Source of the DNA: Ignavibacteria bacterium
Lineage (GTDB): Bacteria; Bacteroidota; Ignavibacteria; Kapaibacteriales; UBA4661
Assembly (NCBI GenBank): GCA_013298775.1
Contig: JAAFIV010000006.1
Location: 62,001-126,000 of the forward strand
Length of the DNA: 64,000 bases
Direction of reading: 5' to 3'
The translations under genes and the position numbers were made by a program. The notes under the pieces were generated by a model. It was not told where the DNA came from. It worked only from the letters and a program-made list of their open reading frames with translations, and did not search any database. Positions 3,340 through 63,844 of the stretch are shown piece by piece (position 1 is the stretch's first letter; each line of letters starts with the position of its first letter).

Positions 3340-3488
3340 CTCTGTACACGACATTTTTTTTCATAGTGGCACAGACATTCTTGTCTGTGAGTATTGGTGC
3401 GAGGTTCGGGCTACAAACACAGACAAGAATGTCTGTGCCACTGAATCCCGATTCTACCAGCTTCTCAGAGGTTTTGTCGTGTACAAAG
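3340..3488. repeat. MITE family 1, copy A
   Basis: A 149-bp non-coding element. Ends are CTCTGTACACGACA (left) and the reverse complement of CTTTGTACACGAC (right). The inner arms TGGCACAGACATTCTTGTCTG and its inverse form a long hairpin. The flanks gggattttt and ggaatttta look like a 9-bp target duplication that has diverged (7 of 9 identical). The element ends 7 bp from the stop codon of the minus-strand S41 peptidase gene, so its hairpin may also serve as a transcription end. Confidence 0.8.
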
Positions 3489-12515: not shown

Positions 12516-12556
12516 AAAATCCCACTTTTTAGGATTTTCGCAGAGGGCATTTTTTT

Positions 12557-12800
12557 GAGCAGACAAGAAGCGTCTGCTCTCTTTGTACACGACAAAACCT
12601 CTGAAAAGCTCGTACATCAGGCTTTAGTGGCTTGAGACTTTCTGTCTGTGTTTCTCACCTAAAACCCGCGCCAACGCTCACAGACAAGAATGTCTGTGCC
12701 ACTGCTGAAGAAGTTTTGTCGTGTACAAAGGTCTGCTCTACCAAAGCCCCGCAATAATTGAGGCTGATGGTAGCGCAGACGCTCCTGTCCGCGCCATTTG
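12557..12800. repeat. Palindromic repeat family 3, interrupted by a MITE
   Basis: Remains of a family 3 hairpin repeat: left half GAGCAGACAAGAAGCGTCTG and right part ACCAAAGCCCC...GGTAGCGCAGACGCTCCTG. When the inserted 150-bp MITE and one 9-bp duplication are removed, the order matches the intact copy at 63775-63844. It therefore predates the insertion. The trailing GCGAACGTCCTACTTTTGTTGAGTA (12798-12822) resembles sequence at 22182-22202. Confidence 0.75.
12581..12730. mobile_element. MITE family 1, copy B, with perfect 9-bp target duplication
   Basis: A 150-bp non-coding element with 17-bp perfect inverted ends CTTTGTACACGACAAAA / TTTTGTCGTGTACAAAG. Both sides carry the 9-bp duplication GTCTGCTCT (12572-12580 and 12731-12739). 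The target was the stem of an older family 3 palindrome. The interior contains the shared CACAGACAAGAATGTCTGTG block. No coding capacity, so it must be moved in trans by a transposase not present in this window. Confidence 0.92.
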
Positions 12801-12827
12801 CGAACGTCCTACTTTTGTTGAGTAATT

Positions 12828-25935: not shown

Positions 25936-26619
25936 ATGAAAGCAACATTGTCTCAATTTTTAGCTGCTAGCATTATCGCCTTTTTTGGTATTGCCGTTTC
26001 TCTTCGGGCGCAAGATTGTCAATCACAATTAAATCGCATGAGCGAACTTGCCACAAAATGCGCGAAGGAATTGGATGCGTACAAAAAAGAAAATAGCGAC
26101 CAAGACCGCAGCATCAAAAAACTCAAAACAACAGTAAACGACCGTGAAAAGCAGGTAGATTCTCTCTCGACTGACCTTGTTGCTCGCAAAACCGATATTG
26201 TCAATTTGAACACCACCGTAAACACGCTCCAAGCCACGCTCGTAACGCGCCGCATGGAAATTGCCCAACGCGATAGCGCACTGGCGATGCGGAAAAGCGA
26301 AGTGTCCTCGCTCACACAAATGCTACAAGACCGCAACGACACCATTGCCGCACTCCGCCTTGCCTTGGAGGCTTCGCGCAACGACCTTAGCACAAAAAAT
26401 GAGTATCTGTCGAGCCTCAAAACTGACGTGGAAGCAAAACGAAAAGAAATTGCCACGCAAAGCGAGCTTCTCAGCAACATCAGCAAAGAAGCTGTGCAGA
26501 CGCTTCGCCGTGAACTGGACGCACTCAAAAAACAAGTAACTGCTCTGCAAAACGACAACGCGCCAAAAACGCCCGCACCAGCGAATCTTCAGCCGAAAGC
26601 TGGGGAATCCAAGAAATAA
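25936..26619 (+). CDS. Secreted coiled-coil protein
   Basis: A 227-residue protein with a signal peptide (MKATLSQFLAASIIAFFGIA, cleavage near LRAQ) and then one long coiled coil from about residue 30 to 205, with strong heptads (KENSDQDRSIKKLKTTVNDRE, LVARKTDIVNLNTTV). It ends in a flexible Pro/Ala/Lys tail (APKTPAPANLQPKAGESKK). Likely periplasmic and structural. ATG 25936 directly precedes the signal peptide; a TTG 78 bases upstream is disfavoured. No family name can be given. Confidence 0.78.
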   Translation: MKATLSQFLAASIIAFFGIAVSLRAQDCQSQLNRMSELATKCAKELDAYKKENSDQDRSIKKLKTTVNDREKQVDSLSTDLVARKTDIVNLNTTVNTLQATLVTRRMEIAQRDSALAMRKSEVSSLTQMLQDRNDTIAALRLALEASRNDLSTKNEYLSSLKTDVEAKRKEIATQSELLSNISKEAVQTLRRELDALKKQVTALQNDNAPKTPAPANLQPKAGESKK

Positions 26620-26633
26620 ATACCTGATTCTTA

Positions 26634-26780
26634 CATTATGCAGTGATAATGAATGTTATGAGTAAGGAACGCGGATTTGAGGACGAAAAGGATTTGGAGG
26701 ACGGAGAAAAGTCCTGAACATCCTGATAGTCTGGGACCTCATCCGCGTTCCAAGAATCGTTGCTTATTTCAAGAATCCTG
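26634..26780 (+). repeat. Repeat family 4, copy B
   Basis: About 147 bp, from CTGATTCTTACAT to ATTTCAAGAATCCTG, with inner blocks GAACGCGGATTTGAGGACGA and CTCATCCGCGTTCC as an inverted pair. It is slightly diverged from the 157-bp copies. The rest of this gap (26781-27029) holds a 78-codon open frame without recognisable features, which I do not call. Confidence 0.7.
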
Positions 26781-28711: not shown

Positions 28712-28799
28712 GATGCAAAGTCCTTGAATAATTAAAACAAAAAAATGTGATTTACGCTGGAAAAGTTATATTCTCGTGGAGAAACCGCTCGGTACATAG

Positions 28800-28895
28800 T
28801 AAATAGTACACTGAGTAGATAGTACACTGAGTAGATAGTACACTGAGTAGATAGTACACTGAGTAGATAGTACACTGAGTAGATAGTACACTGAA
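28800..28895. repeat. 16-bp tandem repeat array (six units)
   Basis: Six tandem units of TAGATAGTACACTGAG, the first and last slightly varied, ending 1 bp before the stop codon of the next minus-strand gene. An array of this kind is likely to vary in copy number between strains. Confidence 0.9.
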
Positions 28896-33113: not shown

Positions 33114-33143
33114 TGCCTGACATGGATAAACTCTAGTAAATAC

Positions 33144-33300
33144 ATGATTCTTGCATGACGGAGTGATAATGAACGAGGCGAGAAAGGAATGCGGATGTGA
33201 GGACGGAAGAGGATATTGAGAACGGAAAAAAGTCCTCAACATCCTGAAAGTCTGGGCTTCATCCGCGTTCCAAACAATCGTTGCTTCATTCAAGAATCAT
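33144..33300 (+). repeat. Repeat family 4, copy C (157 bp)
   Basis: From ATGATTCTTGCATGAC to ATTCAAGAATCAT, exactly 157 bp. Inner sequence GGAATGCGGATGTGAGGACG is matched by CTTCATCCGCGTTCC in inverse. It lies between the amidohydrolase 3' end and copy D of family 1. Confidence 0.78.
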
Positions 33301-39811: not shown

Positions 39812-39963
39812 CTCAGTACACAACAAAATTTCATCAGTAGTGGCACAGACATTCTTGTCTGTGAGTGTTAGTGCGGGTTGCAGATGGGAAAACACAGACA
39901 AGAATGTCTGTGCCACTGAAGCCTGATTGTATCTATTCTTCAAAGATTTTGTCGTGTACAGAG
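39812..39963. mobile_element. MITE family 1, copy C, with near-perfect 9-bp target duplication
   Basis: A 152-bp element with ends CTCAGTACACAACAAAA and, inverse on the right, CTCTGTACACGACAAAA. It is flanked by CGTAAAAAC (39803-39811) and CGTGAAAAC (39964-39972), a 9-bp duplication with one change. Inner arms TGGCACAGACATTCTTGTCTG and their inverse form the hairpin. It ends 22 bp before the nth start codon. The rest of this 462-bp gap (39524-39811) is the pyk upstream region without a visible gene. Confidence 0.88.
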
Positions 39964-53075: not shown

Positions 53076-53151
53076 TGTTGTAGAGGTGATGAGTGTGAGG
53101 TGCTTGGGTTTGGAAGTGAGAATGAATCAACGCGAATGGCAAGCAAAGTGT

Positions 53152-53496
53152 ATCATTCTTGAAATACGCATTGAGAATGAAAAATGTCAGTCAAGAACGC
53201 GGATGAGAGGATCTTGAGGATGAAAACGAGGACGGAGAGAAGTCCTCACCATCCTGACAGTCTAGGTTTCATCAGCGTTTCAATCATCATTAATGCGGAT
53301 TAAAAGATAGTTTTTGACGCTGATTGGACTGATTTCACTGATAAACGCTGATATACAAATATGTTAGGCAAAATCAAAACAGTGCTGTATTCTCAAAAAA
53401 TCTGTGTTCTTCAGTGAAATCAGTCCAATCAGTGTCAAAAAAATCAATAACTTAGCTTAATTTTTAATTCGCATCATTACTCTATTCAAGAATCAT
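53152..53496 (+). repeat. Repeat family 4, copy D, split by a family 5 MITE
   Basis: Ends ATCATTCTTGAAAT and ATTCAAGAATCAT. Removing the nested 182-bp element and one 5-bp duplication leaves 158 bp, almost equal to the intact 157-bp copies. The interior has GAACGCGGATGAGAGGATC and TTTCATCAGCGTTTC as the inverted pair. Confidence 0.8.
53293..53474. mobile_element. MITE family 5, copy B, with 5-bp target duplication
   Basis: A 182-bp element from ATGCGGATTAAAAG to TTTTTAATTCGCAT, flanked by CATTA (53288-53292 and 53475-53479). Inner arms GATTGGACTGATTTCACTGA and TCAGTGAAATCAGTCCAATC form a perfect 20-bp inverted repeat. It lies inside a family 4 repeat and is therefore younger. Confidence 0.88.
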
Positions 53497-63774: not shown

Positions 63775-63844
63775 GGAACAGACAAGAGTGTCTGTTCTAC
63801 CGAAGCCCGTGTTTTCTGGTAGCGCAGACACTCCTGTCTGCACC
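63775..63844. repeat. Palindromic repeat family 3, intact copy
   Basis: GGAACAGACAAGAGTGTCTG then TTCTACCGAAGCCC, a 9-base spacer and GGTAGCGCAGACACTCCTGT-CTGCACC. Each half is a hairpin and the halves are inverse of each other. This copy serves as the model for the interrupted one at 12557-12800. Confidence 0.75.

Follow-up and report, generated by a model that had tools for sequence, protein, structure and literature searches.

A probable IS4-derived MITE nested in an older MITE of another family, and the REP pairs inside both, in an Ignavibacteria bacterium

The window (the whole 64-kb stretch of DNA that was analysed) belongs to a Kapaibacteria-like metagenome-assembled genome of 5.19 Mb in 95 contigs, 99 % complete. 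It contains a nest of two MITEs, in which a short element of family 1 interrupts one of the REPs of an older element of family 3. The initial annotation had placed this nest at 12557-12800 and had described within it a 150-bp element at 12581-12730 with identical 9-bp flanks and 17-bp perfect inverted ends. Direct reading of the sequence confirmed the element, its flanks, the nesting and the perfect inversion of the ends; the ends are, however, 18 bp long, and the true host unit is slightly larger, at 12530-12811 (Table 1). No open reading frame of 120 or more amino acids overlaps the 150-bp element, which with its short length, non-coding sequence and 18-bp perfect terminal inverted repeats (TIRs) is a MITE by structure. 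Its interior consists of inverted REPs, GTGG-CACAGACATTCTTGTCTGTG and its inverse, one of which has decayed in the window copy. The interiors of both MITE and host have the features of REP and REPIN sequences, namely a GTAG/GTRG tag with a palindrome, inverted pairs and high copy number. All three family-1 copies in the window are intergenic.

Table 1 Coordinates of the nested elements and of the other family-1 copies in the window
Feature	Position	Strand	Remarks
Host, older family-3 MITE	12530..12811	.	123 bp without the insert and one duplication; TIRs TAGGATTTTCGCAGA / TTTGCGAACGTCCTA; 76 % identical to L129
Left TIR, host family-3 MITE	12530..12544	+	
First host REP, split by the insertion	12557..12580	-	Rejoined sequence GAGCAGACAAGAAGCGTCTGCTCTACC
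Target duplication, left copy	12572..12580	.	GTCTGCTCT, 9 bp; 9-bp duplications recur across family 1
Family-1 MITE	12581..12730	+	150 bp, non-coding, probably IS4-derived; direct sequence, BLAST copies, 53-copy alignment
Left TIR, family-1 MITE	12581..12598	+	CTTTGTACACGACAAAAC, 18 bp; matches the IS ends in L031
Decayed REP inside family-1 MITE	12627..12650	+	GTGGCTTGAGACTTTCTGTCTGTG, GTGG tag outward; intact in other family-1 copies
Intact REP inside family-1 MITE	12679..12702	-	CACAGACAAGAATGTCTGTGCCAC, inverted relative to the first REP; exact match to the genome-wide REP pattern
Right TIR, family-1 MITE	12713..12730	-	Exact reverse complement of the left TIR
Target duplication, right copy	12731..12739	.	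GTCTGCTCT, identical to the left copy over 9 bp
Second host REP	12770..12795	+	GTAGCGCAGACGCTCCTGTCCGCGCC; REP pattern match with 2 mismatches at 0-based 12769-12791
Right TIR, host family-3 MITE	12797..12811	-	
Further family-1 MITE copy	3340..3488	.	Intergenic
Further family-1 MITE copy	39812..39963	.	Intergenic (L078); 9-bp duplication with one mismatch, CGTAAAAAC/CGTGAAAAC

A genome search with the 17-bp end, which had been proposed as a check on the element, recovered many further copies. With up to 2 mismatches there were 124 matches in the genome against 3 for a reversed-pattern control, and with up to 3 mismatches there were 6 within the 64-kb window against 0.25 expected; a chance origin of the ends is excluded because these counts lie far above the controls. 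BLAST with the 150-bp element returned 40 near full-length copies in the genome. Alignment of 53 copies gave a consensus of 151 bp, to which individual copies are 73-95 % identical, and the family is thus represented by at least 53 elements of about 151 bp. Target duplications were scored in 54 elements (the 53 MITEs and the insertion sequence (IS) described below), using as control the left and right flanks of different elements mispaired. Duplications of 9 bp with at most one mismatch were present in 37 of the 54 true pairs, against 0.49 % of mispaired flanks, and were perfect in 23; the 17 elements without a clear 9-bp duplication are mostly copies that have diverged further. Around the duplicated 9 bp the target shows a weak palindromic preference, gT[G-N7-C]Ac. 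One family-1 copy lies inside a REP of another (L063/L197), and no element with both family-1 ends was found in viral contigs. A family-1 copy at L033:533-728 reaches 196 bp because a short tandem repeat (ACTACCCGCACCAAT, unit of about 15 bp) has expanded in the stretch separating the two REPs.

The initial annotation had also suggested looking for a complete IS that shares these ends and encodes a transposase. A search for DDE_Tnp_1 recovered one transposase that sits exactly between two family-1-type ends, in an IS of 1,179 bp (C14:80601-81779) flanked by the 9-bp duplication GGTACAGAC. The open reading frame is intact (351 aa, no stops), contains the Pfam DDE_Tnp_1 domain (PF01609) and scores 203 bits against the NCBIfam IS4-family model NF033591 (transpos_IS4_2), for which the cut-off is 152. 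The IS4 signature Y-(2)-R-(3)-E-(6)-K was identified by direct reading (YQQRWTIETLFASLK), together with LSLDRTEW and LVADREF. One end of this IS carries a mismatch (CTATG), and it is the sole intact IS found in the source genome; contig C45 holds a 123-aa transposase fragment with stops. A second IS of 1,196 bp was found in G009, a relative of another genus in the same family, with ends CTAAGTACACGACAAAA, its own duplication AAAATTTAT and a transposase 41 % identical to that on C14. A sequence search of solved structures gave one match, by chance only. The left arm of the MITE resembles the IS terminus that lies 3' of the transposase gene (24 of 30 bp identical) and the right arm matches the opposite IS end over 19 bp. 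Since the two arms match the two IS ends, the most suitable reading of the MITE is a derivative of this type of IS in which the interior has been replaced, and the resident IS4-type transposase would presumably move it in trans. The claim that a non-coding element had truly transposed is well supported by the copy number, the 9-bp duplications and the resident IS with its transposase.

The host is a member of a distinct family of MITEs, family 3, with ends TAGGACTTTCGCAAA and, in nearly all copies, two REPs with their GTAG tags inward; exact 5-bp flanking repeats were present in 6 of 12 sampled copies. After removal of the insert and one duplication, the reconstructed 123-bp host aligns end to end with intact family-3 copies of 123-125 bp, at a best identity of 76 %. 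It had been claimed that excision rebuilds a "family 3 palindrome" like that at 63775-63844. The host REP pair is indeed rebuilt and 63775-63844 is a REP pair like that of the host, but no family-3 ends were found around it. What had been named the "family 3 palindrome" is a pair of REPs within an older MITE, which has separate ends and duplicates 5 bp. Identity to the nearest copy is 76 % for the host, within the family-3 sample, and 98 % for the insert, which is consistent with the host being older. The proposed order, with family 3 preceding family 1, is upheld at this locus. Two or three more family-1 copies are inside family-3 units: two lie between paired family-3 ends (L001, L058) and one adjoins such an end (L060). 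Among the 53 family-1 copies, no length is seen that an insertion of family 3 would produce. The inserted MITE carries REPs too, so the REPs as such are not simply the older component. The target locus was compared with paralogous host-family copies only, which are 76 % alike. Of the paralogous empty sites, the clearest is that of the C14 IS, which is inserted in a REP of a MITE of family 2 (ends GGTRCTAAATGATTTCAGTTGGAAA, 182-184 bp, GTGG-outward REP pair; 5 of 8 copies sampled have exact flanking repeats of 8 bp); without the IS and one duplication, the host there is 183 bp long and 95 % identical to an intact copy.

Relatives were compared at the window locus and at other insertions. The two genes flanking the window locus lie on different contigs in G005, the closest relative compared, while G002, G004, G006 and G007 have other sequence upstream of the glycosyltransferase gene; none of the five yielded an orthologous empty site for the nest. 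G005 is about 86-90 % identical at flanking genes and has its own set of family-1-type elements. At one source-genome copy (C71:4701), the element is absent near the matching right flank in G005, where the left intergenic sequence has diverged. Among 16 G005 loci sampled, one insertion (L064/L144) is clearly common to the source genome, with the same duplication and both flanks, a second is possibly shared (L020/L153), and the rest have no orthologous match. Because few of the sampled G005 insertions are common to the source genome and the others lack an orthologous match, family 1 was probably active both before and after the split from G005. At the shared insertion (L064:623-773 / L144) the element is 99.3 % identical and its flanks are 87-94 % identical.

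A degenerate REP pattern gave 1,130 matches in the genome against 2 in the control, and some covariation was seen at the outer stem pairs of the REP, mostly A-T with G-C alternatives. No cognate RAYT was found in the source genome, where the two Y1_Tnp genes are flanked by other repeats. The sister species G005, G006 and G007 have a RAYT bounded by exactly the same REP in inverted orientation, and the REPs are accordingly genuine sequences of the RAYT kind. In these species (G005 L163:379-3195, G006 L159:16-2814, G007 L158:69-1559) recG is interrupted in frame by the RAYT and its flanking REPs, at a point after the segment for the DEAD domain and before that for the SATPIPRTL motif, with the REP read as VAQTFLSV. 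RecG models score above their cut-offs in G005 and G006 despite the RAYT, and recG of G007 is cut by the contig end. The recG gene of the source genome (L190 / L196, G000 C78:61396-63645) has no RAYT there and carries a different short in-frame inverted repeat, CCCAACCCTTCTCCCAGAGGGAGAAGGGC; since a different in-frame insert occupies the same spot, this linker seems to tolerate insertions. Elsewhere (L160, G001 C239:10947-11135), a RAYT domain and a putative restriction-modification methyltransferase share one uninterrupted open frame.

We put at roughly 93 % the probability that the 150-bp element is a MITE derived from the resident IS4-family IS and nested by insertion into an older MITE of another family. 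The MITE would be non-autonomous, with the two IS ends as its arms and an inverted REP pair as its middle, the pair having probably been captured when the MITE arose. An IS4-type DDE transposase acting in trans would most likely excise it and paste it into a target cut with a 9-bp stagger, generating the 9-bp duplication. Here the target lay in a REP stem within an older MITE of a different family, and the nest is the result. The ends, copy number, duplications, target preference, resident IS with its intact reading frame and nesting were observed directly, whereas movement in trans, cut-and-paste and capture of the REP pair are inferred. A repeat that had not been recognised is now read as an IS4-derived MITE whose autonomous partner resides in the genome too, and this in a phylum that has received little study.

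Other explanations share some of this evidence. The element contains a REP pair, the genome has about 1,130 REP copies and a cognate RAYT occurs in sister species, all of which would suit an element that is only a REP pair (REPIN or BIME) spread by a RAYT, with incidental inverted ends and direct repeats. Yet dozens of copies share these ends and duplications, which agree with those of the resident IS4 element, and REP pairs also occur without family-1 ends. Mobility of the RAYT type is not known to yield 9-bp duplications or DDE-type inverted ends, and this explanation, already disfavoured by the duplication statistics, is highly improbable. There is likewise very little chance that the element is a decayed REP-containing hairpin that is immobile and kept as a regulatory RNA structure. 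Although the consensus folds near full length at about -74 kcal/mol and the three window copies are intergenic, the element has target duplications and is nested, the flanks of its copies are unrelated, and insertion sites differ between lineages (1 clearly shared among 16 G005 loci), all of which speaks against it, and host use of mobile hairpins, while possible, leaves the origin of the copies unexplained.

It is possible, if doubtful, that the IS and MITE recognise REPs specifically and that the nest is a product of dedicated REP targeting. Ten of the 54 insertions lie in REPs, 8 of them at one offset (the window copy was assigned by eye, with one extra REP base), against 2.7 expected under a rough model (p about 3e-4), in which the target matrix was built from non-REP insertions only and REP sites made up 5 % of the intergenic weight of the window. 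There is also the precedent of ISRm22, a member of the IS4 family of which every copy lies in a REP (PMC1525189). The other 44 insertions are outside REPs, however, and the REP site GT-[AG..CAGAC]-A fits the target consensus derived from non-REP insertions. Part of the excess is therefore ordinary target choice, because REPs fit the consensus at that offset, and the excess that remains beyond it is only suggestive, since the background was a single 64-kb window with a crude gene map.

Whereas a nested insertion is in itself ordinary mobile-element biology, the presence of one REP family in unrelated MITE families is less ordinary. The reading of all REP pairs as decayed family-1 MITEs was dropped, since part of the pairs belong to MITEs of families 2 and 3, others lack recognised ends altogether, and G007 has many of these REPs but no family-1 ends. 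In G007, no family-1 ends were found at up to 1 mismatch, and 12 loci sampled by REP (L178-L189) mostly hold a single REP between MITE-like ends ATACCAATTT...AAATTGGTAT. A shallow search showed no partner of family 2 or family 3 among its listed end pairs. A limited literature search returned no report of one REP family recurring inside unrelated MITE families, which is not proof of novelty. REPs can ride in several unrelated DDE-type MITEs, a second route for REP spread that fits a genome in which about 1,130 REPs but no cognate RAYT were found. A more speculative extension, which we consider unlikely, is that in this genus unrelated DDE-type MITEs captured one REP family repeatedly and independently as a portable module that aids their spread. 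The end types concerned are those with 9-, 8- and 5-bp duplications in the source genome and another end type in the sister species. The REP hairpin might bring the MITE ends together, or a RAYT might make single-stranded intermediates; if this were true, small elements would be exploiting two unrelated transposition systems. Apart from these elements, a 72-bp repeat (TAAATACATGATTCTTGCAT...) is present in three copies in the window (26617-26688, 33137-33208, 53145-53216), one adjoining a REP pair, and also lies beside a REP pair at L115, and a tandem array with a 16-bp unit (AGTAGATAGTACACTG) occupies 28798-28877.

Nested MITEs and IS insertions into REPs are already known, and IS10 and IS50 likewise have 9-bp target duplications. 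The partner IS resembles the IS4 family (IS4, IS10, IS50) in its DDE transposase with Y-(2)-R-(3)-E-(6)-K, a single open reading frame in 1.2 kb, inverted ends, 9-bp duplications and non-autonomous derivatives with common ends; on the side of differences, its end sequence CTTTGTACACGACAAAA was assigned here to no named member, and the derivatives contain a REP pair. REPs are usually thought to spread via their own RAYT. The present REPs share with the REP/REPIN (BIME) and RAYT systems (Bertels and Rainey 2011, PMC3116915; Di Nocera et al. 2013, PMC3733652) the GTAG/GTGG-tagged palindromes, high copy number, frequent inverted pairs and, in sister species, a RAYT bounded by inverted REPs, but differ in that many pairs lie within MITEs with unrelated DDE-type ends and that no matching RAYT was found in the genome. 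Insertion of IS elements into REPs has been described in Pseudomonas and Sinorhizobium (Tobes and Pareja 2006, PMC1525189), notably for ISRm22, which belongs to the IS4 family. The present IS is likewise of that family, and it and its MITEs occur in REPs at a constant offset, flanked by direct repeats, although only about a fifth of the copies are in REPs here against all in ISRm22, and duplications measure 9 bp here as opposed to 6. The interior of the MITE, in which another repeat sequence is carried, is similar to that of the minisatellite MITE reported from Porphyromonas gingivalis (PMC4596501), from which it differs in that the insert is a REP pair common to several unrelated MITE families.
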